DNA of 64,000 nt from the NCBI RefSeq assembly GCF_032854445.1, contig NC_088295.1:16603385-16667384 (forward strand). Direction: 5' to 3'. Positions within the stretch are counted from its first letter, which is position 1; every line of letters begins with the position of its first letter. A program made the translations under genes and the position numbers. Source of the DNA: Liolophura sinensis. Its lineage: Eukaryota > Mollusca > Polyplacophora > Chitonida > Chitonidae. Below the pieces are notes generated by a model. That model made no database searches and had not been told where the DNA came from. It saw nothing but the letters and a program-made list of their open reading frames with translations. Below, piece after piece: positions 156 to 61,208 of this stretch.

Positions 156-397
156 TTACAGGCTACTTTTTGGTCTTAGGTACAGATCTTTCGTCAGCAT
201 TGATGTTATACAGGGAATCTGTTTCTTGTTGGTCATGTGTGCCTTAGCGGCGTTGGACTCAAACTCATAAGCCACCTTTCTGTTGACTCTGGTCATCACA
301 GACAGCAGGTCCATGGTTTTGCCATGCTGTTTCAGCATCTGGATGAGGGCCTGGCAGAACCATGAGCCATTGGTTGAATTCCTCCAAGAGAAGAAAC
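156..397 (-). CDS. Caspase coding exon 6 (small subunit)
   Basis: Acceptor TATTCAG; encodes GFFSWRNSTNGSWFCQAL, then IPCITSMLTKDLYLRPKSSL and stop. The WRNSxxGSWF segment lines the substrate groove in caspases. Confidence 0.9.
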
Positions 398-3300
398 CTG
401 AATATACATAAAACAATACAATGCTTTTAAAAAAAAATAGTAAAGACAATGAACCAAAAACGAAATCTTTCTAAATGCTACATTTACTTAATGACAATCA
501 GGGCTTCTGTTCAACAGTATTAATTTTGATAGGAAGATCACCATCACTACTAGTTGTTGTGATTTGTGGTCAGACTACTTATTTATCTGTTTATTTGATT
601 GGTGTTCCAAGCATTGTTGTGGGAGAGGGGTCAGACTACTGCTGACTGCTCATAAAATGGGCAGTCTATATCTAAAAACTATATTCCCTAATTCCCCTGA
701 TTTTTGGGACACCTGGCCTGCTCTTTTAAGCCAATATACATGGAATTGTAGCTGGAATATTAAGTTTCTTCTTTTCACACAGTTAGTCCATCTAATGAAC
801 AGCATATTCATATCTTTTTCCAACAAAACTGGGAGAGACATGTAATTCTTTGCTTCAGCACCACTAATATCTGTCCCAAAAATTAGAAGAATTAGGACCT
901 CTGGCAGACTGAGGAAGGTATCTGACATTGGGTACATGTCAGTATGAACAGGTTGTATGTACACACCTGTCATTAAACACACCTGCTCAACACATATAAA
1001 ACAAGTTATTTCCTTGGACTTGTTTTCAGAATATGTCATAACTTGTACCTGGCATAATTTCTGTCACAACATATAGTGATTTCATTATATTTCAGACAAG
1101 TTATACTATGGTAATATGCACCAGCTATGTTAAGTGGGTCGATGGGCTCCATTACCACCATAAAGGACATGTCATGAAACCAAAAACTGTGTAAAATTGG
1201 GTGAATAATTAAAAATAATCCTGATGTAAGAGTTAATATAACTTGGGCGAATCAGTAGTTAGAAGAGAAGCTCCAGTCATAAAAACTACCTGGCACCACC
1301 GAGTAGGCCATGAGAAAGTCTGCCTCTGACGGTATCCTGTGTACTGTAGCTGCGTCCACTTCATCCATCGTCTCTTCTCCTGCCCCGTCAGACTTCTCGA
1401 CACCATGATCTAAACGCGTCCCTCTGCAGGCCTGCATTAGGTACAGACCAATAAAACAGAGTACAACAACATCAACATGAACTGCAGCATTTTGTCAGGC
1501 AAAGCTGTGATGAAACCATAAATACAAAAAATTTTGTTATACACATCTACTTAAGACCTTCAAATTTCAAGAGTGCTACCAAAAAACTTCGAAAATGAAG
1601 GCCTGCTACTTAAATGGTGTGCTTTGTAAGCATGCAACTTGACATTCTGGAGTGTATTCATACCATCATTTCTTCTCCAGGAGGATCAGACAAAGAATTG
1701 TATACAAAAGATATCCAATGTGGATTTCAATATTAATTATAAAATACATTTCTGGACTTGTCAAACTAACATATCAGAATGTCCCACTGACAAGTTGATC
1801 AGAAGCACTTTATATTATCGTAAAATATTTCAAACCCTATCTGGTCTAAATAAAAAGGAACATATCACCACTGAAATGAATGTGAATGAAAATTCGTGAA
1901 ATGTTGACTGTAAATGTAACTTGCACGACTGTTAATTACAGTTGTTAGTACCTGAATGAAGAAGAGTTTAGGTTTGCCAATCAGACTTCTGCAGTTATGC
2001 CCCTTGAATGGCTCCACTATGTCTGTGATGGGAATTGTGCCATCCGTTGCATAGATAATCCCTTCTTCTCCGTGTGTCAAAATAGCACAGGCAAAGCAGT
2101 CAAACCGGGAATGATCAACGGCAGCAGCTAGTAAACAAACAAAGTGCTCTGTCAAACATAAGACATATTCAACAAAGATTTCCCAAACTAATCCGTCTGT
2201 ATTAAACTAACAAGTAAATTGAACAAAATATGATGGTTTTCCAATAAAAGTTAAAATTTCAAACAAATTTCTTAAAAGGTCTATGAGAAAGATCATTTTT
2301 GAGTTGCATTTTCTAAAATTTCTTTATGCATGGTCACAATGTCACCTTTAAAGTTTGGGGTCTGAACCTTCAATATTTTTCCAGATTTGGCCCTACATGT
2401 AAGTAGACCTGAGGTTAAGTCAATCAAGTCTATTTCAGCTCTCAGTCTTTAATTGTACATTGACAAGTTTAAATCAAAACTCTTATCTGTCAGGAAGCAG
2501 ACACAGGAAGCAGACACTGACTCGGATACATGTATGACTTTGACACTAGCCTTATGTGAATGACTGCACATTTATGTAGGCAATGCAAGGCATACAGGAA
2601 TATAATGAACTTTTGTTTTCAAAGGAGATCATAAACATGTGTCATTTTACTGATCAAGACTAATGGTTGCAACTTTGGCTTTGCATGGTTAAAATTCTGC
2701 ATAATTTGTGTTGGATAAATCACTAACTGTAGGTGCTGATTTCTGGAGCTTTACAAACACAATCAATTCACTAAGCTGTTCGTATATCACAACTACACTA
2801 TAACATACACAGACAAATAATAACGCGCAGTATTCTAAAGAGGCCCAACATTTGGTATCTTATTTGTACAGATGAGTGATGAGCAGGTATATACCTCTTT
2901 TAAGTAATCTAGAAGGTCTTTTTTAGACATGTTGTGTTTTAGGTCCACTTTAAACTGTAGGTCTGTGAACACCTGGTACAGTCCAGCGGCATCAACATCT
3001 GTGCCATGCCTCTCTGGCATTCTTAGGTGAGACGCGAATTTACGGTTATTAATTATGAGGGCATAGCCTCTCTCTGGGTAGTCCATTCTGTAAGCATCTG
3101 CAGGTGAAAACCCAGACTCCCCCATTTCCATTGGCGAGCCAATAAACCTGTGAGTTATTGAATATTTTGAATAAATTAAACACAAGATGTAATATATATA
3201 TATACAGGGTGTCCCAGAAGTCGTGAACCATCTTGATTTTCATTTTTTTCTGTGTTTCAGATTTAATACTGATTTAAACAATTTTCTCTCTCTTTCAGAG

Positions 3301-6286
3301 TTAATTATGGCTAATAAACTAACAGTACAAGAAAAGAGTTAAATTGGTTTTTATGTCTGGAAAAGATGGGGCAACACACCGCTCTGTAGCTCAAGCATTC
3401 AGCCTCAACCTGGATGGTGCATGACTTCTGGAACACCCTGCATAATTACAGTTGACAAAAATACACCAGAAAACATAACAGTAAAACTTAAAACATATTA
3501 TCCAGGCATACCTTATCACCAATATCAAACACTTTAGCATGAACAAATAGCCTACTGCTGTGCAGCTAAGGTAAAATTCAGAATATTTCACGGGGTGTTA
3601 TAGCCAAAATGGAAGAACCATATTTGTAAATATGAAAATGTGAGGTAGTGCTATACCTTCGTGTGGGGCCAGCATCAGGGCCGTCATCAGGTGCCCCATC
3701 GCCTTGTCTGCGGGCATCAATATCATCTCCTACAGGGGATGCGCACAGAAAACATCATCAAAAATAAAACGTCTTCTTAAAGCCAGCCATATTCAATTTG
3801 ACACAGACTAAAACCCAAGGTGAAGCCATGAAAATGCATATAAGCTTTGACTTCAGGTAAGATGACATACTTGTTATGCTTTAAGAGAACTGATAATGTG
3901 TCCAGGTAGGACACCTGTTTTAAACACATGTCCACTACTAGTCCAAATATCCAAGTACATTGTACTGCAAATACTTCTCAAAGAACACTAAATTTCCTCA
4001 AAGTCATACTCACATAATGTAGTAAGGATACATTGAATGACAGATTATTTTTATGTCCATATCCTACTATTTATCATATCTGTACCCTTCAGAAAGTACA
4101 TTTACAGTTATTTGCATTACCTTCTTCCATTCTCCAGGATAGAGGCGAAATATTGTTATTAAACAAAGTGACGACATGAAAGTCACATGCTGCAAATGTG
4201 CCAGCTCAGCAAAAGGGCTACAAGAACCTGATATGAGTGACTGGCTGACATATTCTGGCCATGCAGGTGTGAGGGGACATTCACTGGAGTGTGCGTTGTG
4301 TGTGTAAGAGATTAAGCTCATTAAGGGATTATAGCTGTCAGTCTCAGGTCACATAGTGTTGTAATGAACACCTGCTGGTAGAGAGGTTACCACAGGCACT
4401 CTCCCCAAAATACCGAATGTACATGCATACTTGGCCATGGGTTCATGATGCTCAGGGGAAATCACAGATCTTCCCTGCATCCAATCAATGTATGTCTAAC
4501 TTGTCCAATGTATGTCCAACTAATCCAATGTATGTACAATCAAGAACAGAAACAAGTTGTAAAATCCAATGCTAAACTTCAATCCCTGTACCATGTATGA
4601 GGGATGTGGGTGAAATATCCATGTACAGGAAAATGTAATACCCCAGACAGATTGGCTTTGATCAAGCAACACGTGTGTTAAACTGTACATAAAAATGGAA
4701 AAGACCATTTCAGAAATGGGTCAGAACCTGTCCAAAATCTGTTCGCACTGTTTAAAGTGACTACTGCAACCATTTTGATCAAACACACAAGTTTAAAAGA
4801 ATTTCAATCGCATTCTATTCAGATGAGTGCATCCATGCTGCACGCACACAAATGTCAGCATCTTTTTAAATGATCAAAATCTGATCCAAATTGTCAATGT
4901 ACTCATTATGTAGAGCCAATGAATTTGTCTAATATTAACACAATTACTATTATTGTATCTAACTGACCTAGATAGAAAAACCAAAGCTAAACAAATTTAG
5001 TACATGCTTAAAACTCTCTCGATGTTCTAAGTCTATAGAGTCTACAAGCTATACACATTCAATATCCCATATAACCCATCTAAAACTCACAGAATTGTTA
5101 GCAAGACAAGCTTGAAATTGATCTGTAGACATGAAAAACATGTGTTTAATCCAGATTCCAGATTGAATAACTAAGTTTGGTGGCATGCATGTTTCAAGGG
5201 ACTCAAATTAGAGGTGTGCACTAAGTAACTTAGATGATGCTTCGCTGCTAATGCTTGCAGCTGTGGTTCGGGCAGCTAGTCCAATTTCTGCAATTTTTAA
5301 TCCATGGCACCAAGGTGTTATTTAAACTCCACATGCCATGTCTGTACAGCTATTTTGACAAAAAAGAAATGTAAATTATGTGCTTAAATTTTCTGAACAG
5401 AACAAGTCTGGAATGGATTTCAACTTGCACGCATAACTTATTATGCCAGGACACACGGGCTGTTGTTTAAGGGCCAATTTTAATGTAAAATTCTTCAATT
5501 TCTTACCCTAGTATGATTATCAGCAAATATCATGTGGTCCTATACAGTATGACTCTGTATTATACATTTTGATTTTAAAATCCAATCTTGCGGTCTTTTA
5601 TTCAAGGGCGTAAATACCCACCTCTCGTCAGCAACAGCATGAGCCCTGGATATCAACCAAACCATCATAAACTTAGCACCGTACTGGAGTACAATCAAAT
5701 AGCCAAGGCATCGATTCCAATCAATCTATTCTTCAGTCATGGCACAGCACTGCTGTTTCAAGACTAACATAAAAATTTGCGACTGTTTCAGAACTACTGC
5801 GCTTTGCCATGACGGAAGAAAAAGGTTGACTGGGATCCATGCCTGAGTTGGCTATTTGGTTTTACCCTATATCAAATTTATGATGGTTTGGGCAATATCC
5901 TGGACCCATGCCGGTGTTTTGAGAGGTAGCTTTCGACCAGAAATAAAAGACCCGAATATCAGACTCTGTGCCCATTCAGATCCAGAAAGCATAAATCGAG
6001 TCATATTTTAATTTATATGACTAAATTAGTAAACATTACGGTGCTATTGAAAAACAGGCCTTGACGTATAGTTTAACTGAACATTCCTTCCTTATTCATT
6101 CTAAAGAAATAATATATGGTGTGTTATTTTTTTCAAATTGTAGGTGTAGGCCTATACTACAAAGGAAATGACATGAAAATTACAAGTAAACCGAAATCAC
6201 GAACACTTGACAGCAACAACAACATGTCTGTGTCGGAAATTATACACTTTCTTTTAGCTTTTACCTGGTTTCGAGTCATCCATCAT
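156..6286 (-). CDS. Effector caspase (caspase-3/7-like), six coding exons
   Basis: Cysteine protease of family C14 that cleaves after Asp in the execution phase of apoptosis; cytosolic zymogen. Coding exons on the minus strand: 6286-6265, 3729-3657, 3147-2870, 2127-1952, 1431-1290, 397-156 (phases 1,2,1,0,1), total 310 residues, normal for an executioner caspase with a short prodomain. Visible motifs: S1-pocket Arg in RHGTDVDA (R78), catalytic His in THGEEG (H143), catalytic Cys in QACRG (C185), DEVD|A at 206-209 in the p20/p10 linker (probable activation site), SWRNSTNGSWF (R236, W243) forming the S1 and S2-S4 groove, and the small-subunit end IPCITSMLTKDLY. There is no DED or CARD. The start is ATGATGG at 6286 followed by a good donor. 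The exon 3 to 4 junction is uncertain: the better-looking donor (2895) breaks the frame. The gene is head-to-head with an inactive paralogue. No polyadenylation signal is seen before the window edge. Confidence 0.9.
398..1289 (-). other. Caspase intron 5 with dispersed repeat
   Basis: No coding sequence seen. About 700-895 matches 30600-30795 and is listed as a repeat. A short T/A-rich SINE-tail-like piece lies near 580-615. Confidence 0.7.
700..895 (+). repeat. Dispersed repeat, copy A
   Basis: Similar by eye across about 200 bp to 30600-30795 in the same orientation (shared runs include CCATCTAATGAACA and TTAGAAGAATTAG). No coding potential or terminal structure is recognised, so the family is unknown. 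Confidence 0.6.
1290..1431 (-). CDS. Caspase coding exon 5 (catalytic Cys, linker)
   Basis: 142 nt. Begins with ACRG (catalytic Cys), contains the DEVD|A interdomain linker and ends in EADFLMAYSVVP, the small-subunit start. Donor CCAG|GTAGTT, phase 1. Confidence 0.9.
1432..2869 (-). other. Caspase introns 4 and 3
   Basis: Intron 4 (1432-1951) and intron 3 (2128-2869) flank exon 4. Both are A/T-rich unique-looking sequence; no RNA gene or mobile element is recognised. Confidence 0.6.
1952..2127 (-). CDS. Caspase coding exon 4 (catalytic His)
   Basis: 176 nt, acceptor TACTAG, donor CAG|GTACTA. Encodes DHSRFDCFACAILTHGEEG (catalytic His) through KPKLFFIQ; the phase 0 end splits the active-site pentapeptide between Q and ACRG. 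Confidence 0.88.
2870..3147 (-). CDS. Caspase coding exon 3 (start of p20)
   Basis: Holds GYALIINNRKF and RHGTDVDA with the S1 Arg. Acceptor CACAG. Two ends are possible: donor GAG|GTATAT at 2895 (better site, phase 0) or TCT|GTACAA at 2870 (weaker, phase 1). Only 2870 joins exon 4 in frame, adding about eight residues after DYLKE. Confidence 0.7.
3205..3440 (+). mobile_element. Deleted mariner-family element, about 236 bp
   Basis: Terminal inverted repeats of about 29 bp: the left end starts CAGGGTGTCCCAGAAGTCGT, and the right end read in reverse starts CAGGGTGTTCCAGAAGTCAT. It sits at TA-rich sequence, as expected for TA-target transposons. Inside, a start codon opens MANKLTVQEKS and a shifted frame gives GATHRSVAQAFSLN, resembling the N-terminal helix-turn-helix of mariner transposases. 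The rest of the transposase is missing, so it is non-autonomous. It occupies nearly half of caspase intron 2 and ends 58 bp from exon 3. Confidence 0.8.
3657..3729 (-). CDS. Caspase coding exon 2 (prodomain)
   Basis: 73 nt, phase 1 in and phase 2 out, acceptor CTGTAG, donor GAAG|GTATAG. Encodes an acidic Gly/Asp/Pro-rich prodomain (DDIDARRQGDGAPDDGPDAG) with candidate Asp cleavage sites before Ala. Confidence 0.75.
3730..6264 (-). other. Caspase intron 1
   Basis: About 2.5 kb of A/T-rich sequence. No second prodomain exon, RNA gene or clear repeat was found. Confidence 0.5.
6265..6286 (-). CDS. Caspase coding exon 1
   Basis: Encodes MMDDSKP plus one base (phase 1); donor CAG|GTAAAA. It resembles the first exon of the divergent paralogue (MDDSET, also phase 1), which supports both starts. 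Confidence 0.7.
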
Positions 6287-7888
6287 TCCTTCTCGATGAT
6301 CAGAAAGCTATATGTGTTATGAGCCACTGGGCTTCAGCGTTATTCGCAGAAATGATAACAATAGATCTTCCTAAGATGTTGTCATTTCCGCCGCTTCTGT
6401 TTTCAACATTTAAAATGGTCTACCTTCGATGTAAACTGCTCCAGACCCTAAAAGGTCGCCTGCAGTTTTCTCCCTTTGTTGAGTGGCACCTTCCACTTGA
6501 AATCGTCTTTTTGAATGAAGAAGTTTGGAGTGAAGTATCATTTATAAATAAATATTCAGCGACGAAAGAAAAAATACACAACAACAAAAATTCACATATG
6601 AACTAATATATTTTTGAGTCTTCTTACAAAAAAAAGATCGAGACACGTTGCTATCTTTTTGGATACCAATATGAATATTGTACCTGACTATAGCGTTCAG
6701 ATGCGGGAGTAAATAGTGGTGTACTGAGCATCAGACTCAAATTACAAACTTGTAGAAATAAAAATAATAAAGGCATTCTATAGCATGCTTTTGTTAGTAA
6801 ATCTTAATGATTAATGAGCAATAAAAAATGGACTGTTTTAAGAATTTAATTTACTTAATGGTACCTTTACTCTTGGTTTAATTAGGTACCGGTACCTATG
6901 TTGTGCATAACAGCAGGTATTTCCAAAAATTACAATGGACAAATATCACCAACAGCCCCGGCCCCTCCCACTTCTTACACAGTTCGGCTCAAACTACTGA
7001 TAAATTTGTAACCGGGGAATTAGAGAATTTATACAGTTTAGCACCTAGTAACACTGGGTTAGAATTTTTTATCATTTGAATTTTGATATGTTAAAATTTT
7101 AAAACATAAAATATGTTAACAGTTAAGTGAAGTAGGTGAAAACGTTGTCTTTGGTGTGCCTATACTATATATTCATTATGGGACATTCCAAAGCTGTTCC
7201 AAAACACAAAATAATGTATGGAGTCTTGACATGGGGAGTAAAAACAATATCTCGTTTGGCCATGCAAGAAATTTACAAAAGATATGTGAGAAAGTGACCA
7301 TTTCTACATACAGACTGTCTCTAAATATATTACAAAGCTCTGGTTATAATAAAATCTAGCCGAGTCAATGATAAATGAAAATTGTTCCTCTCCCACCAAA
7401 GTTTTTCAAATACCCTGACCGTAAATAAGGAATTCAGTGCCATTAGAAACCGAGATGAGGCTGATTGAAGGGAGATAATCCACTCAAAGGTTTCAAGTGG
7501 GTACAAAATCGAAGCGGGATGAACCCTTTTCCAGCAAATGCGATTTCAATCATTTGTACGTTTTTCAGAAATACAAAAACATGCATCATATTCACATGTG
7601 ACGCATCTTGTTGGGCTTTACTGTCATACTTTAGTATACCTAGCACACCGTGTAATTATGGTGACGTATGTGTTGTGTTGTCAAAGCCTGAGAATATGAT
7701 AGTGAAATATATTTGCAAACTGAAAGTGAAACTGCAGCGTGTGACTGATTTTAAAAGTGACTGAATCATTGCACCGAAATAGTAGGCCTATATCAACCAA
7801 TTTGTGTCATGTGACGTCTCAGGTAGCTTCCAACATCATCTATCTAGTGTACGCAAGTGACCTATGCAGTGCATGAAAGCAGAGTGAA
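6287..7888. promoter_or_regulatory. Divergent intergenic region between the two caspase genes
   Basis: About 1.6 kb separates the start codons of the divergent caspase and pseudocaspase, so it should hold both promoters and 5'UTRs. No clear TATA box is assigned. A GGTACC-rich patch lies near 6850-6900 and a GGGAGATAATC motif at about 7470. That it is a promoter is inferred from gene orientation only. Confidence 0.5.
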
Positions 7889-7907
7889 ATGGACGATTCA
7901 GAGACAG
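7889..7907 (+). CDS. Pseudocaspase coding exon 1
   Basis: ATG followed by DDSET plus one base; donor ACAG|GTAGGT. It parallels MMDDSKP in the divergent caspase. A donor four bases downstream would give phase 2 and could skip exon 2, a possible alternative. Confidence 0.65.
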
Positions 7908-10900
7908 GTAGGTGGACAGACCGTGCATGCTGGCTCCACTTAGGATCAGTTTATGTTAGTCTCATCTAGGTCTTGCATTCATGGACCGTGCAACCCATTT
8001 ACAACCCGTGCATGTGTGAACATGAGCATTAGGCCTAATACCAGCTGATGATATACAGTATGTGACCTATAGATGCTGTTTGCCAGCTTTATATAGGCTG
8101 ACGCACCTACATGGAATTTGTCTCATTCTGGTTGTTGATCCACTGTTCCTTACGATTATCTGTCAGTTTTCGGCAACATGAAATTAGTAAAAAGTACAAG
8201 AAATAAGGAGTTAAGCTTATCCATATGCAGATGCAAACCTACTGTTTTATTTTTTGGTAGTGGATTTCATTATCACAGACTTGTTTCAGATGTGAAAAGA
8301 TGCACTTTGCTTACAAATATGGTATCTGTTTGAAGATGTAGAACAGTTCTGTATAACAGTTCTTGTAACAAGTGTTATAATCAGGAAGCAGATAAGTAAC
8401 ATTTATATATTTATAGGGAAGTTTGAGCGGGCTGATGTCTTTGTGAACAATTATAGTTTGTCATCCAGTCATTACAAGTCATTAGTTTTGTTAATTCTGC
8501 AGTAGGGAAAAGTGATGTTAAGCTTAATATGATTGTGATGTGCCATGGGTAAACATTGTTTTTAATAACAGTTACACGTATCTTTTCAAAAATATTTTAG
8601 GAAATAAGCACATTTAAGATGCAAACTTATGTGACGAACAACATTTTGGTGCCCGGTGATGCCGGACCAACATACTGTACATACAACACATCTGTCATTG
8701 TTCATGCATATAACAACCTACTGTACACAAAAATTTAATATTTGAAAGTGATTTAGCTGAACTGTTAATATTAGTTTGTGGAAGCAAACTGATGCGACAA
8801 ATTCCTTAACTGGCCTATAAAACAGGATGAGGCGTCACCAAGGAAAAGTTTGATAAATTTCAGTCTTGTCTGTCAGACCATCTGCAGTGAGTCTGTTCCT
8901 GGCTTAGGAATGCTCTGTTGTCAGACCCTCTTTAGTGTGCCTGTTCCTGGCTTAGGAATGCTCTGTTGTCAGACCCTCTGCAGTGTGCCCGTCCTTGGCT
9001 TAGGAATGCTCTGTTGTCAGACCCTCTGCAGTGTGCCCGTCCTTGGCTTAGGAATGCTCTGTTGTCAGACCCTCTGCAGTGTGCCTGTTCCTGGGTTAGG
9101 TATGCTCTGTTGTCAGACCCTCTGCAGTGTGCCTGTTTCTGGCTTAGGAATACTCTGTTGTCAGACCCTCTGCAGTGTGCCTGTTCCTGGCTTAGGAATT
9201 CTCTGTTGGTAACTTTAAAATATCAAAGGAATGACATTGGTCATTTTCATTGGCTGGTGAAACCTGAGTGCCTGGCATAAACCACTGACATTTGGCAAGT
9301 TACTGACACTTGTGATGTATAGATTTACACCCCATTTGAGTTGAAAACAACTTGTTTTTTAACAAATGTTAGATGGGGTTTATTGTCACTAGGGTCCCAC
9401 AATCAGCCAGAATGGGTGATCGAATCTACAGATTTCCTTCCCTAGGCTCGGGTTGAATGCACACCATGAATGTCCTGGTGATTGGAAGGCAAGTGCCTTT
9501 GTACCTCAAGGTCATGGCCCACTCATTCTTTATGATTGTATTTATTCATATATTTAAACAAGTTTATATTGAAATTTGCCATGCATTTCAAGTCTGGAAA
9601 TAATTGTGGAGTTGGTGCCGGCCATACCTGCAAATCTTCCAGCTACGAATATTTACATTCTCTAAAAAGCTTACAATGTTATTTTTCTGGCAGTTTTGTC
9701 CTGTGACAAACAGCTGGCCCAGTCAAACTGCTGTTTGGTGCAGGATATTGTCATCATTGTTGCCTATTTCCAGGCTTGCATTTATTAATGCTGGTATGTA
9801 TTTACCATAGGTGAACATCAGGGTTGACTTGTAAAAAATTTTTTGCTTCCAGTCACTTGTGCTCACAGCAGAGATGTGTATTTTGAGCATTTGAACAAAA
9901 GGTAAGACTTAATTTTCTTGATATATTTCATATTGACATAATCCCAATTAAATACTTCAGACCAGTCAGTCCTGTAGTGTTGATTGTCTGTGTGTAGTTG
10001 ACATGAAATGCTGATTTAAAATTGTAAAATGAAAGTAATCAATAATAAAAATACATATTTTATTTGTGTTTTTTGTGGTTTGTAAGTTTGAACAGAATTG
10101 TCACATGTGATTGATTGTTATTTAATGTGAACATAAATGATTTGTAAAGTCAGTCCAAAATTCTTTCATTAATTTTTTAGCATTTTGGATGTGCCGTAAA
10201 AAGCATTTAAAGAAGGATAAAATATGACAACCTTTTCAGACCACATCTAAGTGATGTGACATCATATTATTGTCTTCATAAAAAAATTTGAAAATGGTTA
10301 CTTTCCTTATGAAATACCTCTGGTTGATTCTAATAAGTTTTCATGGATTTTTTATTCACTCAACAATTGATTTTTATTCTGGATTTTCAGAAAAAGGAAT
10401 TTGAAATATATCTGGACTCTGTTACACTTCATTAGAAGCAGACATGATTTTTGGCTTTATGATGTAAACTGTAATCCTACTTCAGGTCTGTTCCCGCACA
10501 GAACAGTGATGATGAATACAGCACAGCGCATCGTTATCGTGGACTTGCAGTTGTAATTAATAACAGTTCATTAGTGCGTCAAGAAAGTGCTGGTTCACAA
10601 CAAGATGCGGACTATATGGCGAAGACGCTGAAAAGTCTGCAATTTAAGGTTCAGCAAGTCAAGGACGTCAGAGGAGCTGATCTGAGCAGACTTTTGTACA
10701 AAGGTAAAATTTAATCCTGACCCATAAATCACTGATACTGGTTCAAATTTTAGAATATTTCAAGCCTTAGAAAATGATGTTTTGATCATCAGAATGCATT
10801 TTCTGTCAGTAGTTTCTCTGGTAAATTATGTAATTCACTGCATACATATGACCGGCCCGGATAGCACAGTTGGTAGAGCATCCGCTTCAGGACCAGTAGA

Positions 10901-13900
10901 TCCAGGATCAATCCTTAATCGAGTCACACCTAAGACTTTAAAAGAGGAAGTTGTAACTTCCTCGCTTGGCGTTCAGCATGAAGGGGATAGTGCAACGACT
11001 GGTTGACCCGTATCAGTATAATGGCTCGGGCGGGGCGCCTTACTTGCCTTCGGTAAGTCGTCTCAGTGAAGCAGCACTAAATAAAAGAGCGGTGGAAATC
11101 CGTCCTGCAACAAGGAGGCACATTACATGTACGTGCACCATAAGGATTCCTTCGTCGTCATATGACTGAAAAATTGTTGAGTACGACATTAAACCCCAGA
11201 CACTCACTCACTAACTCACTCTGCATACATATGTAAGGCCAGGCCAATTTCAGGCAAAAATAAATTTGTGCAAAATGCAGACTGTTTCAGCAATTGCTCC
11301 TGTTTAAACATATTTATGTGATAAGCAAGCCTTGAAAAAAAAGAAAAATCATCTGAAACATTAAAATTGGATATTTTCAATTTATTTTTTTTTAATTCCA
11401 TTTTTTGTAATTTTTAGGGTTGGCATGCCCATAGAGATAAATTTGGTTTTGCCTAAACTACAGTTATGCCTGACATGCGCTGAAGTTTAACGCTTTTATT
11501 TTTCTTATAATAATATATTATACTGTATTATTGACAGTGTCGCAAGACAGTTACCATGGCAATGCTGACTGCTTTGTGTGTGTCATAATCAAGCGTGAAG
11601 ACGGGGCAGTAAAGTCACAGCATAGCCAGATGTCTGTGACCCGAGGGCTTGATGTGGTAGACTGTACCGAAGCTACAAGTGGAAACAATAGTCATATGTT
11701 TAATGACATAAATTGTCCACAACTTTCCGGGAAGCCAAGACTGTTTTTCATTCAGGTATAAGTTAAACTTACTTGTTATTTATTTAAGCGGTTTTAGTGT
11801 GAGTCTGGACTAAGTTTATTTATTTATTTGATTGGTGTTTTATCCTGTACTAGAATATATCACTTACACAACAGCAGCCAGCATAATGGTGAGAGGAAAA
11901 AGGAGCAGAGCGTTGGAAACCCACGACCATCCACAGCTTGCTGATAGACCTTCCCATGTATGGCCAGAGAGGAATCCAGCATGAGCTGGGCTTGAACTCA
12001 TAGCGATTGGTGAGAGGCTCCTTTGTCATTGCGTCATGTTGGCATGCAAACCATGGAGGCCACGGAAGCCCCTTCTGGACAGATGCGATATACAGGGTAA
12101 TTAAGGTGCATCAGTACTGGGTGGACAATCAGTACCATTATTAGGTAGAATAGGAGTAAGATGTTATGTACTGAATATAGCTGCTTGGTAATCAGTACTG
12201 GGTGGACAATCAGTACCATTATTAGGTAGAATAGGAGTAAGATGTTGTGCACTGAACATAGCAACTTGGTAATCAGTACTGGGTTGACAAGCAGTACCAG
12301 TATTAGGTAGAACAGCAGTATGATGTTGTGTACTGAATATAGCCACTTGGTGATCAGTACTGGGTGGACAAGCAGTTCAAGTATTAGGTAGAACAGCAGT
12401 ATGATGTTGTGTACTGAATATAGCCACTTGGTGATCAGTACTGGGTGGACAATCAGTACCAGTATTAGGTAGAATAGGAGTAAGATGTTGTGTACTGAAT
12501 ATAGCAACTTGGTAATCAGTACTGAGTGGACAATCAGTACCATTATTAGGTAGAACAGCAGTGTTATGTTGTGTACTGAATATAGCCACTTGGTAATCAG
12601 TACTGGGTGGACAATCAGTACCATTATTAGGTAGAACAGCAGTGTTATGTTGTGTACTGAATATAGCCACTTGGTGATCAGTACTGGGTGGACAATCAGT
12701 ACCAGTATTAGGTAGAACAGCAGTGTTATGTTGTGTACTGAATATAGCCACTTGGTGATCAGTACTGGGTGGACAATCAGTACCAGTATTAGGTAGAACA
12801 GCAGTGTTATGTTGTGTACTGAATATAGCCACTTGGTGATCAGTACTGGGTGGACATTCAGTACCAGTATTAGGTAGAATAGCAGTATGATGTTGTGTAC
12901 TGAATATAACCTCTTGGTAATCAGTACTGGGTGGACAGTCAGTATCAGTATTAGATAGAACAGCAGTAAGATGTTGTGTACTGAATATAGCAACTTGGTA
13001 ATCAGTACTGAGTGGACAGTCAGTACCAGTATTACACAGAACAGCAGTGTTATGTTGTGTACTGAATATAGCCACTTGGTAATCAGTACTGGGTGGACAA
13101 TCAGTACCAGTATAAGGTAAAATAGGAGTAAGATGTTGTGTACTGAATATAGCAACTTGGTAATCAGTACTGGGTGGACAATCAGTACCAGTATTAGGTA
13201 GAACAGCAGTAATATGTTGCATACTGAATATAGCCCCTTGGTAATCAGTACTGGGTGGACAATCAGTACCAGTATTAGGTAGAACAGCAGTGTTATGTTG
13301 TGTACTGAATATAGCCACTTGGTAATCAGTACTGGGTGGACAATCAGTACCAGTATTAGGTAGAACAGCAGTGTTATGTTGTGTACTGAATATAGCCACT
13401 TGGTGATCAGTACTGGGTGGACAATCAGTACCAGTATTAGGTAGAACAGCAGTGTTATGTTGTGTACTGAATATAGCCACTTGGTGATCAGTACTGGGTG
13501 GACAATCAGTACCAGTACTAGGTAGAACAGCAGTGTTATGTTGTGTACTGAATATAGCAACTCAGTGGACAAGCAGTACAAGTCTTAGGTGGAACAGCGG
13601 TATGATGTTGTGTACTGAATAGATCACATGGTGAACAGTACTGTTATGTTCTGTATGGGGTAAGTTAGTTGTGGATGAACCGAAACATGTGGTTTAACTG
13701 TGATATAGTGTTGATGGCAAGTATGGTGTTCAGTACTAGTTAACAAGCCAACAGTGTAGTTGCCAATGCTGTGTGAGAAAGTGGTTATGTCGTGAAGACT
13801 CGGTCTGGTGTTCAGTGCTGTATGGATCAGTAATGTGTTGTTCAGCAGTGGGTGGGTCAGTGGTCTGGTGTTCAGCACTGGGTGTGTCAGTGGTCTGGTT

Positions 13901-16900
13901 TTCAGCGCTGGGTGGGTCAGCAGTCTGGTGTTCAGCACTGGGTACGTTAGTAGTCTGGTGTTCAGTGCTGGATGGATCAGTAGTCTGGTGTTCAGCACTC
14001 AGTGGATCAGTAGTCTGGTGTTCAGCACTGGGTGGGTCAGTAGTCCAGTGTACAGTGCTGGTTGGGCCACTAGTCTGGTGTTCAGCACTAGGTGTGTCAG
14101 TTCTCTGGTGTTCAGTGCTGGATTAGTCAGTAATCTGTTTTTCAGCACTAGGTGGGTCAATAGTGTGGTGTTCAGCACTGGGTCGGTCAGCAGTCTGGTG
14201 TTCAGCACTATGTGGGTCAGTAGTGCAGTGTTCAGCACTAGGTGGGTCAGTAGTCTAGTGTTCAGCACTAGGTGTGTCAGTGGTGTGGAGTTCAACACTG
14301 GGTGTGTCAGTGGTCTGGTGTTCAGCACTGGTTGGGTCAGCAGTCTGGTGTTCAGCACTGGAAGGGTCAGTAGTCTAGTGGTTAGTAATCTGTTGTTCAG
14401 CACTAGGTGGGTCAATAGTGTGGTGTTCAGCACTGGGTGTGTCAGTAGTCTGGTTTTCAATGCTGTATGGATCAGTAATGTGTTGTTCAGGAGTGGGTGG
14501 GTCAGCAGTCTTTTGTTCAGCACTGGATGGGTCAGTAGTCTAGCGTTCAGCACTGTGTGGTTAGTAATCTGGTGTTCAACACTACATGGTCAGTAATGTA
14601 TTGTTCAGCAGTGGGTGGGTCAGTAGTCAGGTGTTCAGCACTGGGTGTGTCAGTGGTCTAGTGGTCAGCACTGGGTGTGTCAGTGGTCTGGTGTTCAGCA
14701 CTGGGTGGGTCAGTAGTCTGGTGTTGAGCACTGTGTGGGTCAGTAGTGTGGTGTTCAGAACTGGGTGGGTCAGTAGTGTGGTGTTCAGAACTGGGTGGGT
14801 CAGTAGTGTGGTGTTCAGCACTGGGTGTGTCAGTAGTCTAGCGTTCAGTGCTGGATTAGTCAGTAATCTGTTGTTCAGCACTAGGTGGGTCAATAGTGTG
14901 GTGTTCAGCACTAGGTGGGTCAGTAGTTTAGTGTTCAGAAGTAGGTGTGTCAGTGTTGTGGAGTTCAGCACTAGGTGTGTCCGTAGTCTAGTGTTCAGTG
15001 CTGGATTAGTCAGTAATCTGTTGTTCAGCACTAGGTGGGTCAATAGTGTGGTGTTCAGCACAATGTGGGCCAGTAGTCTAGTGTTCAGCAGTAGGTGTGT
15101 CAGTGTTGTGGAGTTCAGCACTGGGTGTGTCAGTGGTCTGGTGTTCAGCACTGGGTGGGTCAGCAGTCTGGTGTTCAGCGCTGGTGGGTCAGTAGTCTAG
15201 TGTTCAGCACTGTGTGGTTAGTAATCTGTTGTTCAACACTAGGTGGTCAGTAATGTATTGTTCAGCAGTGGGTGGGTCAGTAGTATGGTGTTCAGCACTG
15301 GGTGTGTCAGTGGTCTGGTGTTCAGCACTAGGTGGGTCAGTAGTCTAGTGTTCAGCACTGGGTGGGTCAGTAGTCTGGTGTTGAGCACTGTGTGGGTCAG
15401 TAGTGTGGTGTTCAGCACTGGATGGGTCAGTATTCTAGTGGTTAGTAATCTGTTGTTCAGCACTGGGTTTGTCAGTAGTCTTGAGTTCAGTGCTGGGTGT
15501 GTCAGTAGTCTGGTGTTCAGCACTGGGTGTGTCAGTAGTCTGGTGTTCAGCACTGTGTGGTTAGTAATCTGTTGTTCAACACTAGGTGGTCAGTAATGTG
15601 TTGTTCAGCACTGGGTGGGTCAGTAGTCTGGTGTTCAGCACTGGGTGTGGCAGTGGTCTGGTGTTCAGCACTGGGCGTGTCAGTGGTCTGGCGTTCAGCA
15701 CTGGGTACGTTAGTAGTCTAGTGTTCAGTGCTGGATGGATCAGTAGTCTAGTGTTTAGCCCTAGGTGGGTCAGTGGTCCCCTGTTCAGCACTGGAAGGGT
15801 CAGGGGTCAAGTGTTTAGCACTGGGTGGGTCAGTAGTCTGGTGTTCAGGACTGGGTGGGTCAGTAGTCTGGTGTTCAGCCCTAGGTGGGTCAGTGGTCTC
15901 CTCTTCAGCACTGGAAGGGTCAGTAGTCTAGTGTTCAGCATTGGGTGGGTCAGCAGTCTGGTGTTCAGCACTGGGTGGGTCAGTAGTCTAGTGTTCAGCC
16001 TTAGGTGGGTCAGTGGTCTCCTCTTCAGCACTGGAAGGGTCAGTAGCCTAGTGTTCAGCACTGGGTGGGTCAGTAGTCTGGTGTTCAGGACTGGGTGGAT
16101 CAGTAGTCTAGTGTTCAGCACTGGGTGGGTCAGTAGTCTGGTGTTCAGCACTGGGTACGTTAGTATTCTAGTGTTCAGTGCTGGATGGATCAGTAGTCTG
16201 GTGTTCAGCACTCAGTGGATCAGTAGTCTGGTGTTCAGCACTGGGTGGGTCAGTAGTCCAGTGTACAGTGCGGGTTGGGCCAGTAGTCTGGTGTTAAGTG
16301 CTGAATAGATTTAAATCTTTGAATCCATCACCATTTTACTTAGTTGAGAGTTCTGTTTGCCTGAGTTGTTCCTTGTTTATTGTCATGTCTTGGAGGATTT
16401 CTCTTTATATAAGTCTATACAGCTTACAAGTAGAGGAATATCCACGTACCCCAACCAAGGGAGACAACCGAGAACTCAAACTTACTCACAAAAACTGAAA
16501 TCCCAGACCTTTACCTAACATCTGTGGTCCATGTAACAATTTCTTGTATTTCAGACCATTAGTGAGAGCAGCATGTACAGTGATGTCAGAGTACAAGATG
16601 GCCTTGATGAGGTGGATGCTTGTGTTGTCAGACCACCTGCACCAATTCCTCCTATTCAGGAGAAGTGCATGATCAAGACTCTCAGGGATGAGAAACTTTA
16701 CAAAGACTTCTTGTTAATGTATGCTACGTGTCCAGGTAAGTCATGTAGTGCTAGTCTGTGTGGCTAGGGTTTGTGTGTGTTGTAAGTGCTTTATTGTCTG
16801 CGTCATGCCAGTTAAACTGAATGGCCTTTCAAATCTGATAGACGATTGTCCCTTTGATTTACTGATGATTTTCCTTTGATGTGCCAGCTGATGATTTCCC

Positions 16901-17524
16901 TTTGATATGCTAACTGATGATTTCCCTTTGATATGCCAACTGATGATTTCTCTTTGATATGCTAACTGATGATTTCCCTTTCATTTGCCAATTGATGATT
17001 TCCCTTTCATAGACCGACTGATGATTTCCCTTTCATAGACCGGCTGATGATTTCCCTTTCATAGCCCGGCTGATGATTTCCCTTTCATAGACTGACTGAT
17101 CATTTCCCTTTCATATTCTTTAAGTTAACTGATGTTTCATTTTATTAGTATAACTGGTAACTGGTAACTTTCCCTATGATGTGATATCTTATGATTGTCC
17201 TTACCATATAGTGATGGATGATTTTCTCAGTCATTTGATATGGCAACTGATAATTCATTATTTTCCATATGTAGTAACTTCTGGTTGTTCACCTATTGTG
17301 TTTCCATCTAAATAATTTCCCATATTTCTCCAGGAAACGACAGTAATGGAAGAGTATCCAGGTTCACCCAGCTGTTATGCCAGGCACTCACAGAAGCCAG
17401 AGGTCGAAGTTTACTGCGTATGTTGACCTGTGTCTGTGGTCAGATGATCAAGCACAACAGTTCAGTTCCATGTATTTACAGCAAACTGACAAGAGATTTG
17501 GTCTTCAAAAACAAGCAGATATGA
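7889..17524 (+). CDS. Catalytically inactive caspase paralogue (pseudocaspase), six coding exons
   Basis: Caspase-fold protein, 291 residues, open across exons 7889-7907, 9853-9901, 10486-10703, 11538-11755, 16555-16735, 17334-17524. Phases (1,2,1,0,1) equal those of the neighbouring active caspase. Fold landmarks kept: GLAVVINN, SLQFKV, DCFVCVII, KPRLFFIQ, DEVDA (186-190), DFLLMYATCPG, VPCIYSKLTRDL. Catalytic features lost: Cys of QACRG is Ile170 in QTISE; the active-site His is Arg115 in IIKRED; the S1 Arg of RHGTD is Ser57; SWRNSxxGSWF becomes NDSNGRVSRF. Protease activity is therefore very unlikely. A role as decoy, inhibitor or heterodimer partner, as known for c-FLIP and some insect and nematode caspase homologues, is inference. 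All junctions are canonical and no stop interrupts the frame, which argues against a pseudogene. Confidence 0.85.
8874..9209 (+). repeat. 48-bp minisatellite, seven copies
   Basis: 336 bp, exactly seven 48-bp units starting CAGACCCTCTGCAGTGTG. Because 48 is a multiple of three, it produces overlapping open frames that are repeat translations (SVPVLGLGMLCCQTLC-like), not evidence of a gene. It lies in intron 1. Confidence 0.92.
9375..9530 (-). mobile_element. Decayed tRNA-like SINE candidate
   Basis: Read on the minus strand, the piece starts GGGCCATGACCTTGAGGTAC and continues with a tRNA-like head and a GATTCGATCACCC segment. Boundaries and family are uncertain; no target duplication was found. 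Confidence 0.4.
9853..9901 (+). CDS. Pseudocaspase coding exon 2 (micro-exon)
   Basis: 49 nt between a strong acceptor (TTTTGCTTCCAG) and a strong donor (AAAG|GTAAGA). Phase 1 in and phase 2 out, exactly as exon 2 of the active paralogue. Encodes VTCAHSRDVYFEHLNK; no similarity to the active prodomain. Confidence 0.65.
9902..10485 (+). other. Pseudocaspase intron 2
   Basis: A/T-rich, no repeat or gene recognised. Confidence 0.5.
10486..10703 (+). CDS. Pseudocaspase coding exon 3
   Basis: 218 nt; acceptor CTTCAG, donor AAAG|GTAAAA (phase 1). Encodes YRGLAVVINNSS through SLQFKVQQVKDV. The S1-pocket Arg and the GTDVDA loop are replaced by SAGSQQDA. Confidence 0.88.
10851..11220 (+). mobile_element. 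tRNA-derived SINE, full length, with target-site duplication
   Basis: The tRNA-like head GGCCCGGATAGCACAGTTGG has an A box (TAGCACAGTTGG, 10862-10873) and a degenerate B box (GGATCAATCC, 10905-10914). A long body follows, then a tail GAGTACGACATTAAAC and CACTCACTCACT repeats. The 13-bp duplication CTGCATACATATG lies at 10838-10850 and 11221-11233, proving insertion. It lies in pseudocaspase intron 3 (10704-11537). It is not a functional tRNA gene: the B box and folding are degraded. Confidence 0.88.
11538..11755 (+). CDS. Pseudocaspase coding exon 4 (His lost)
   Basis: 218 nt; acceptor TTGACAG, donor TTCAG|GTATAA, phase 0. DCFVCVIIKREDG aligns to DCFACAILTHGEEG, placing Arg at the catalytic His. 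Ends KPRLFFIQ. Confidence 0.9.
11815..12072 (-). mobile_element. tRNA-derived SINE, mollusc-type family
   Basis: On the minus strand it begins GGGGCTTCCGTGGCCTCCAT (tRNA-like head) and ends in a TAAA-type tail next to GTATAAAACACCAAT-like sequence. The middle has the recurrent blocks GAGTTCAAGCCCAGCTCATG and GTCGTGGGTTTCC seen in at least six fragments in this window. A TCTGGAC repeat on each side may be a short target duplication. It lies in pseudocaspase intron 4. Confidence 0.75.
12111..13620 (+). repeat. 81-bp minisatellite, about 18-19 copies
   Basis: Unit about 81 bp with core TCAGTACTGGGTGGACAATC. Units differ at scattered sites. It lies wholly inside pseudocaspase intron 4. The 515- and 367-residue minus-strand frames here are by-products of a period divisible by three. 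Confidence 0.93.
13800..16308 (+). repeat. 30-bp minisatellite, about 80 copies
   Basis: About 2.5 kb of a degenerate 30-bp unit, GTCTGGTGTTCAGCACTGGG followed by TGGGTCAGTA. Longer stretches recur in order (for example the TTAGTAATCTGTTGTTCA variants), suggesting higher-order repeats. The plus strand is rich in G and T. It directly follows the 81-bp array, and both share the core CAGYACTGGGTGG. Confidence 0.93.
16555..16735 (+). CDS. Pseudocaspase coding exon 5 (Cys lost, DEVD kept)
   Basis: 181 nt; acceptor TATTTCAG, donor CCAG|GTAAGT, phase 1. Starts TISESSMYSDVRVQDG where the active gene has ACRGTRLDHGVEKSDG, aligning without a gap, with Ile at the catalytic Cys. It then keeps LDEVDA and a Pro-rich linker. 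Confidence 0.9.
16859..17120 (+). repeat. 26-bp minisatellite, about 10 copies
   Basis: Unit of about 26 bp, TGATGATTTCCCTTTCATAG plus GACCGAC-type variants, degrading toward the 3' end. It lies in pseudocaspase intron 5 (16736-17333). Confidence 0.85.
17334..17524 (+). CDS. Pseudocaspase coding exon 6 (small subunit)
   Basis: Acceptor TTTCTCCAG; encodes GNDSNGRVSRFTQLLCQAL and ends VPCIYSKLTRDLVFKNKQI. The GSWF groove motif is absent, but the C-terminal beta-strand motif resembles IPCIxSMLTK. Confidence 0.88.
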
Positions 17525-57625: not shown

Positions 57626-59179
57626 TGTATGTCGAAATCACACTTTAAAGCGAGATTTGCAGGTTGTCAGATAGACGCGTGTTCTCGTGTCAGTCCTATC
57701 ACTTTTAATTAAATTCACGCTGAGAAACGGGATGTCGCATTACATGTCCCTGCCTCCATGGGCCATTCTGCCGCGCTAGCACGCTATAGTTACTCGACTT
57801 GTCTCATCGACAACTATAGTAATACATCATAAAGATAAAATGTGAGAGAATATCTTGATACAGATGAAAAATACAGAGGAAAGGGACATGAACTAGAATC
57901 TTTGGTATAACTAATATAAATGCCGGCTTCCTCTAAACAAACTGATGCATTTGGGAGAGTAAGTGATGGAATTATATCAAATAAATTGTTCATCAGTTCC
58001 TTACTCTCTAGAAAACTATATTTGAACTTCGGTTACCAAAATTACATGATACTGGTGGCACTGGCGGGGAAAACATTTTTTAGAATTCTTTGTATTATTG
58101 CTCTAACTGAATATGCTTCTACCCCCGCATAGTTGGGTGGTGGGGGGGGGGGGGGGGAGAATTACTAAAGCTGGTTGTCCTTCTTGGAAGCTTGCTAGTG
58201 GTTTGTTGTTCTGATTTGGTACTGGTTACGCTGATATGTTGGTGGTGTTGGTGGTGGAAGTTTATTTTCAAATACAGAGCCTGATGCATCAGTTATTTTG
58301 AATCAATAGCAGGCGATGTATGTTGCGCCGTATACGCATCTGTATCAAACCTGATTCTTCGTACAGTAGGTTAGAAACAACGCGTTTTTCTCAAGCTGTA
58401 GTGAATTTTTTAAGAGAATAAACGATTGCACCGTCCTTGTGCCGCGAGCCGGCTTCCATTATAGATTTTGCCCCAACTTTGCGGTCGCGCGTGTCCCACT
58501 CATAGCAGTCAAGACAAAGGGAGGTCACTCTCAGAGTACTTTACGTAGAGTATTGTCCCTTGCACCATATACGCGTCTATGCCAACGTAAAACAGCAATA
58601 TTGCATGTACGACAGAGAATTTTTATCTTTGGTGACGGTTGTGAGTGAGGGAGGTTGGGCTTACTGGGCAGTTTCCCAGTTGAAGACGCGCAAACACTGG
58701 AAGCTCTTGAACCCTGACCTTGCGATCACTGAATGTGTATATTGGCTGAATGCCGGTATATGAGTATCAGTTTCGACGCATGTATTCATAACATGTACTC
58801 GCCTGGACACTGCTGGTAGTTTTGACCCCGACGTTAGACCTCTACACATATAGACCTAATATTATTATGATACAAAACAATTATAAAACTAAGGCTGTGA
58901 ATCGTGGTGCTGATTCACATGGCTCACCAGCGCTAATGGCAATTACCATTCTTGAAGCTGATTTATATCACACGACAAAAAAGGGATTAATACAAAACCA
59001 TGTGAAATTCAATTAATCTATTAACTCTAAGTAACACATACTTCCCAAAATCACCCATTTACTATTTGTACATAGGTGTATGTGGACGTAAGAACTATCT
59101 AACACGCCCACTCCTCAAGTCCTCATACAATTTCAGTTCATCTCTGACTGGTAAATAATAATGTGTTCAATCTGACGTT

Positions 59180-61208
59180 AAACTTAGTTGTAAATCATCA
59201 TATTGCATTTATTTTGTTTCATGCCAAAAGTGTGGTCAGCAGTATGTTGGAAAGACGACACAAAAATTACAACAAAGGGTAAATGACCATGGAAAATTAG
59301 TGAGGAAGAAAACAGCTTTTAATAGCAAACATTCTTCTGCATCCGAGCGTGACTGGGGCCACTTCAGTATTCCAATAATATACATGAATCATTTTTCTTC
59401 AAAGGGTAATGTTTCTGATGTCGAACGGAAAATCCGTGATCCGGGACTATTTTGGATGTTGGAGCTTGGTTCACTTTACGGCTTAAATGACAATGTTATG
59501 GGGATTGGCAACGTAACATCTAGTCAACCACACAATTCTAACATAACACAACCGTTCAAATGCCATCAACGAAGTCAACACAGCTTAATAAGGTGCCGGT
59601 TCACATTAATATAGCTCTGACCTACCTGGTAGGTTTGTCTAAAACATCTGGTAGCATACACGCTCAACGCACAGTAATATATGAACTTCCTCTTAAAGTG
59701 TTTAATATTGTAAATTACAATGATCTACTAAATGTGCTTGTGAAAAAATCCGAAGTATAGTTAGTATGCAGAGAAACATAAATATGAGAGCTAATATAAA
59801 AAAAATTGTCCTTTCGGCGCTTAAAATCTTTGCCAGAAATGGTCTAAAGATAAGAACGTAGAACATTCTGTCTTTGGCACATGGCTTGTGCTATAGTAAA
59901 GAAAAAGATTGTGTGTCAATCCACGATATCAGTACTAACTGATGCTCATGGGATTGTCAAACAAGTTCTGAGGGCTCCTATAGGGTGCGAAAGGTAATTC
60001 ATGACCTTCAGAGAAAATACCTTATTGTTCTTGCGGAAAAAGTTCCTAATAATATTATATTTGTCTGCAAGAATTATTACTATCATGATCTTGTATAGGA
60101 GCTTAATATATAACTAGAACAACTGCCGCAGCATTAACGTATTCTATAACGACCTATGCTCTGGAGGAACTATTTAAAAGACAGCAGTCCTTTCTCCAAT
60201 CGAGGAGTATATCCGTACCTTCCCGTCACAGCGACATACCACAACTTTACAGGATTCCAAAAATGCATTAATCCTCACACAAAGCTCGTTTTATTGCGGA
60301 GTCAAGAAACTGCACCACCAAACTTTTATTCATTCTCTCAAAAAATTTCACTACAGGTTTTGGAAAGAGTACTCTTGTGCAATTGCAAAAAAATTCAGGC
60401 GTCAACTGTAGGTGGATTCTTAAAAACTCCAGACGTCACATTGAAGAACTAAACACTTTAATACACGCACCGTACAAGGACATTTCTACTTGAGATTTCC
60501 CCACTGTCTACACTACTATTCCTCATACAGATTTAATTCATACAATTTTTTCACTAATTGTGTCGGTGTTTACTCAGACTGTTACTACATTAATGTCAAA
60601 GGCAATAGAGCCTTCTTCAGTTCCACTACATACAAGGGTTACCATTCAAGAGAAGTTTCCTTATTCATCGAGTATCTTGAATTTCTCATTAATAACATCT
60701 GTGTGAAATTTTGGAAAACTATATATCAGCTGTGTATAGTGTGCAGATTGTGCCCCACTTTTGCATGGTTGACCTATACCTGTTCTCGCATGAATGCGAC
60801 TGTATGCAGAAAATACGAAATGGAATAATTTTCGTCAAACTCTGTTTTTCTCGTTAACTAAAGGGTATGTTGATGGTCTGCTATATCTTTAAACAAGACA
60901 TATATAACAAAGACCGTGACAGATAAATGTTCACTTTCACTCGATTTAAAGAAAACGACAGACTCTTCAGATGGTACATTCTATCTAGGCCTATATATGA
61001 GCACAAAGACCAAAACGGTTTTTCTCTCACGCAAGCTTTGCGACAAGAAGGATAGTTTCAACTTTGATAGTGTATTCTATCCTTATTTGGACAGCAGTAT
61101 ACCGAAGGGTCGACGATTTCGATTATTGTCACAAATTATTACTGCAAAGACTAGTATGCCAATGTTAATGTCTATCAAATGCCTTCACTCTATTAAGTGA
61201 AGGCATTT
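59180..61208 (+). mobile_element. Dead Penelope-like retroelement, GIY-YIG upstream of reverse transcriptase
   Basis: Plus-strand fragments in order: GIY-YIG-like module (59200-59500: CIYFVSCQKCGQQYVGKT with a CxxC pair, then RVNDHG); N-terminal RT block (59991-60095: VIHDLQRKYLIVLAEK, NNIIFVCKNYY); RT core (about 60220-60690: IPQLYRIPKMH, CRWILKNSRR, DFPTVYTTIPH); catalytic box at 60866 reading YVDG instead of YVDD; then LYLGLYMSTK-like and CDKKDSFNFDSV/DSSIP blocks (60916-61200). Stops and frameshifts are many and the second catalytic Asp is gone, so it is inactive. N-terminal GIY-YIG is the permuted order described for Naiad/Chlamys Penelope-like elements; canonical ones carry it C-terminally. 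Confidence 0.75.

Follow-up and report, generated by a model that had tools for sequence, protein, structure and literature searches.

Catalytically broken caspases have precedents in bivalves, mosquitoes, worms and vertebrates, and in several animals dead caspases regulate cell death or have been proposed to do so. Among molluscs, Mytilus coruscus possesses eight Mc-caspase-3/6/7 genes in which the catalytic His or Cys is deleted or mutated (PMC10967218), and in Cg3A of Crassostrea gigas the catalytic His is replaced by Tyr (PMC7836458). Broken catalytic sites have been called ubiquitous among bivalve caspases, in a description of their sequences rather than their function (PMC10967218). CASPS18 of Aedes aegypti has no catalytic activity and is a putative sensor or enhancer of CASPS19 (PMC5433025). 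CSP-3 of C. elegans is a caspase homologue without an active site, and later authors could not reproduce the anti-apoptotic role that had been reported for it (PMC3591282). The long form of c-FLIP is a dead caspase-like protein encoded by a gene that adjoins caspase-8 (PMC11121540), and it is cut by caspase-8 at the site LEVD (PMC3281420); this precedent for control through heterodimers concerns an initiator caspase (PMC11121540).

The genome of the chiton Liolophura sinensis contains a dead caspase gene at positions 7889-17524 of the plus strand of the window (the whole 64,000-nucleotide stretch of DNA that was analysed). Its six exons splice into an open 291-codon frame (876 nucleotides, 291 amino acids and a stop), as an earlier note on this DNA had claimed, and all five introns have GT-AG borders. 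The hallmarks of a pseudogene (stops, frameshifts and intron loss) are absent from it. By analogy with c-FLIP and CASPS18, the likeliest role of its product is to serve an active caspase, without proteolysis, as partner or decoy. A full-text literature search returned no earlier report of this gene and no paper joining chiton, caspase and Polyplacophora. The features of the locus are as follows.

7889..7907, plus strand: exon 1, MDDSET, ending in phase 1, with the 19-nucleotide MDDSxx/G layout of exon 1 of neighbour A
9853..9901, plus strand: exon 2, encoding a portion of the short prodomain
10486..10703, plus strand: exon 3, with the RGLAVVINN strand retained and the RxGT loop degraded to QESAGS
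11538..11755, plus strand: exon 4, with the catalytic His replaced (IIKREDG), a 14-residue insert and GKPRLFFIQ retained
11756..16554, plus strand: intron 4, mostly minisatellite (81-bp units at 12110-13562, then 30-bp units at 13803-16295)
16555..16735, plus strand: exon 5, with QTISE instead of QACRG, the intersubunit linker and the DFLLMYA strand
16606..16620, plus strand: linker codons for DEVDA (residues 186-190), a caspase-3/7-type cleavage motif
17334..17524, plus strand: exon 6, with WRNSxxGSWF broken up, loop 4 shortened, the p10 strand region VPCIYSKLTRDLVF retained, and the stop
156..6286, minus strand: neighbour caspase A (span as in the earlier note), head-to-head with the dead caspase, with QACRG, THGEEG, SWRNS and the linker MDEVDA

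Both the p20 and p10 parts of the C14 domain place the predicted protein in the caspase family: it matches Pfam PF00656 (Peptidase_C14) with 109 bits (E 3.2e-31) over profile positions 1-232 of 233, its top match in the PDB is 1m72, a Caspase-1 (E 5.6e-19), and exons 5-6 alone match PDB caspases with a best E of 1e-5. No match was found in NCBIfam. Only 40 residues precede the Pfam match, and a domain search of the protein encoded by the modelled exons, upstream of which another exon is possible, found C14 alone and no DED. With this short prodomain and a cleavable linker, in which DEVDA is the predicted cleavage site, the protein has executioner architecture at the sequence level. Introns 1, 4 and 5 carry minisatellites at 8871-9208 (48-bp units), 12110-16295 (81 and 30 bp) and 16861-17116 (26 bp). 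An upstream short open frame on the plus strand (7864-7887), with in-frame ATGs at 7864 and 7873, stops one base short of the dead caspase's own start codon.

The columns of the catalytic His, the catalytic Cys and the p20 S1 Arg (RxGT) hold these residues in all nine of the modelled paralogues of the same genome (9/9 at each), and in the dead caspase they hold Arg115, Ile170 and Ser57, respectively. All three replacements had been read correctly in the earlier note, which had gone further in stating that every active-site part was lost; the Gln of QACRG is retained, as Gln168 in QTISE. The p10 Arg falls in an alignment gap and is lost. The protein therefore possesses neither member of the His-Cys dyad of an active caspase, and of the Asp-binding S1 residues it keeps Gln168; the roles of the dyad and S1 residues (p20 Arg, Gln and p10 Arg) are those that we take to apply from the structure of caspase-3. 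The WRNSxxGSWF segment (loop 3), also described as lost, is altered and three residues shorter than in paralogues A, B, C and E, and it retains the Ser and Phe of GSWF (as VSRF). Compared with the same four paralogues, loop 1 is shorter by three to four residues and loop 4 by 12-13, and 14 additional residues precede GKPRLFFIQ. The shortening of loop 4 and this insert were not remarked on in the earlier note, nor were the DEVDA of the linker and the residues added after it. Identity to A, B and C is 0/4 in TISE, 1-2/13 in the His loop and 0-1/10 in loop 4.

A hidden active alternative exon within the introns of the dead caspase was considered and was not seen by either exon placement or pattern scan. 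On the plus strand between 7001 and 20000, exons 4, 5 and 6 of neighbour A fit best onto the dead exons themselves, and the one occurrence of a QAC[RQ]G-type DNA pattern in the window lies inside neighbour A, with none in the dead caspase.

Approximately 36 kb hold four caspases, three of them (B, C and A) on the minus strand and the fourth, the dead caspase, on the plus strand. The start codons of A and the dead caspase are 1.6 kb apart; the core exons of A lie between 168 and 3086, and its exon 1 at 6265-6283. The 19-nucleotide first exon MDDSxx/G with a phase 1 end is common to these two genes, and neither the cluster's minus strand nor the sequence ahead of exon 3 of E yielded any further copy. 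In A (2127-2895, minus strand), the obvious donor of exon 3 (after 2895) and acceptor of exon 4 (before 2127) are out of phase, and alternative donors or acceptors yield open joins. Elsewhere in the window, an open frame on the plus strand (59162-59614) encodes a GIY-YIG domain (E 1.7e-7) and perhaps belongs to a mobile element.

A search of the genome gave 29 matches, which correspond to at least 13 loci with caspase domains. Ten of these, including the dead caspase, were modelled with a custom spliced aligner and reading by eye (the models of H and J are incomplete) and aligned; the C8 locus at 29.12 Mb and two C13 loci, for which there was no usable spliced model, were left out. In a separate search of the genome, no close paralogue of the dead caspase was present among the 10 scored matches, which apart from its own exons had E values of 1e-4 or worse. 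In the tree of the ten caspases, the dead caspase has the longest branch (2.87). It clusters with A, B and C (76/85.5) and within these with B and C (80/73), both under the starred level, and a grouping with A is absent from the best tree. Constraining it to group with A, E, D or I gave p values of 0.198, 0.155, 0.118 and 0.184, respectively, none of which is a rejection. The linker and first exon point to A, and the core alignment leans slightly towards B and C. A plausible origin for the dead caspase is the inverted duplication of an A-like gene. The p10 Arg of the WRN motif is absent from paralogues B (WWNE; L009, C1, about 16585 kb) and D (FLNK; L012/L013, about 11473 kb), in both of which the His and Cys are present; alterations may thus extend to other chiton caspases.

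The joint alteration of the substrate loops and the new inserts would suit a caspase fold that has been reused as a scaffold in a new role outside cell death; the retention of DEVDA and the location of the gene beside three other caspases argue against such a change of role, which is considered unlikely.

Regulation of an active caspase, the preferred reading, draws on the intersubunit linker, which contains the caspase-3/7-type cleavage motif DEVD-Ala followed by approximately 19 additional residues. Among the ten modelled caspases (the linkers of H and J being uncertain), DEVD is found in the linkers of the dead caspase and neighbour A only. When the linker of the dead caspase was shuffled 200,000 times, in a test devised after the fact, DEVD arose in 0.34% of trials and DExD plus a small residue in 0.77%. 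The linker alignment score of the dead caspase with A was reached by 19 of 20000 shuffles in one run and 3 of 5000 in another, compared with 47/5000 for B, 247/5000 for C and at least 630/5000 for each of the remaining six paralogues. Together with the similar first exon, the DEVDA linker points to adjacent caspase A as a likely partner or protease of the dead caspase. The retention of DEVDA in a protein whose catalytic centre is gone, and the residues added after it, could also indicate a bait or pseudosubstrate that slows executioner caspases or reports their activity through its lengthened linker without dimerising; but DEVDA may be mere inheritance from an A-like ancestor, and a bait has no need of the retained p10 strand region, so this reading is distinctly improbable.

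Preservation of the remainder of the domain is uneven. Identity to A, B and C is 6-8/9 in the strand RGLAVVINN, 8/10 in SGKPRLFFIQ and 8/14 in VPCIYSKLTRDLVF, and helix segments are poorly retained (3-6/14 in a1, 1-3/14 in a2 and 2-4/13 in a4), so that the case for a retained fold depends chiefly on the strands and the Pfam match. Of 47 near-invariant columns, the dead caspase keeps 2 of 11 catalytic or substrate-pocket columns, compared with 24 of the remaining 36 (p 0.0065), or 2/11 and 29/36 if similar residues are counted (p 0.0003); these columns are not independent, and those called catalytic were assigned by ourselves. Fifteen reruns (three alignment modes with five settings each) gave p values of 0.0015-0.0086 in 12, the seven-row reruns omitting H, D and J, and of 0.053-0.055 in the three that contained only five sequences (the dead caspase, A, B, C and E).

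Neutral evolution of the coding sequence was simulated with substitutions only, indels being excluded. Among 400 copies of the dead caspase, the stop-free fraction was 0.003 at 0.2 substitutions per site, and no copy was stop-free at 0.3 or 0.5. Of 1000 copies derived from paralogue C, 14, 1 and 0 were stop-free at 0.2, 0.3 and 0.5 substitutions per site, with 65, 53 and 37% of residues still kept. Fourfold codons of the dead caspase match those of paralogue C at 8 of 28 sites and those of B at 9 of 33 (0.24 expected). Third codon positions match B and C at near-random frequency overall (0.28-0.29), compared with 0.48-0.60 for first and second positions, a contrast that has built up ever since the duplication and so also covers any time that preceded the loss of catalysis. 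Because catalytic columns were lost preferentially and the frame is open where neutral copies carry stops, these data suggest selection for a non-catalytic caspase fold after the loss. The earlier description of an intact but dead gene with its fold retained thus has sequence-level support in the columns, the open frame and the strands, and its claim of selection is argued, not proven; the role that it offered (decoy, inhibitor or allosteric partner) is an inference there and here. A decaying pseudogene, a duplicate caspase drifting with its frame open by chance, would fit the longest branch of the tree, the several indels, the poorly kept helices and the large repeat arrays in introns, but it is very improbable, since neutral copies gain stops early (0.003 of 400 stop-free at 0.2, 0 at 0.3), loss of nine of the 11 catalytic columns by drift alone would need more divergence than stop-free copies tolerate, and GT-AG is intact at five introns.

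The preferred reading is that of a pseudocaspase that would derive from the local cluster of executioner-type caspases. The dead protein is predicted to fold as a caspase, and through its retained p10 strand region, which we take to be the dimer interface, it may dimerise with an active paralogue, most likely neighbour A, or compete with it. Active executioner caspases would cut it at DEVD-Ala. By dimerising or competing and by being cut, it would regulate caspase output without proteolysis, its partner being either stabilised or blunted. That the dead caspase is a caspase-binding regulator, with an effect of either sign, is given roughly an even chance, and the remainder belongs mostly to other non-proteolytic roles. 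A more specific and much more tentative proposal is that the dead caspase is co-regulated with its active head-to-head neighbour and forms a dimer with it, both halves being processed at DEVD-Ala, with cleavage of the dead half switching the pair; if true, this would be a c-FLIP-like switch that evolved separately in chitons and acts on an executioner, not on an initiator. Retention of strands and a processing motif beside a plausible partner makes the partner hypothesis directly testable with two recombinant proteins.

The known systems resemble the chiton gene in different respects. The bivalve caspase-3/6/7 homologues are alike in being molluscan, of executioner type and members of an expanded family from which the catalytic His or Cys is gone; unlike those cases, as they are described, the chiton gene has its dyad, p20 S1 Arg, WRN motif and loop 4 jointly affected. 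CASPS18 is a caspase without catalytic activity, as is predicted for the chiton protein, but it belongs to an insect lineage. CSP-3 similarly lacks an active site, but its anti-apoptotic role failed replication (PMC3591282). As far as sequence is concerned, c-FLIP as described shares with the chiton protein a dead caspase-like domain, a caspase-type cleavage motif in the linker and an active caspase alongside. However, two DEDs are present in c-FLIP, whose partner is the initiator caspase-8, whereas the chiton protein has a short prodomain, and its modelled exons encode C14 only, with no tandem death-effector domains; the c-FLIP-like homologue of the earlier note is therefore a likeness of function, not of domain makeup. 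The chiton gene combines an extensive loss of catalytic parts with a retained processing motif.
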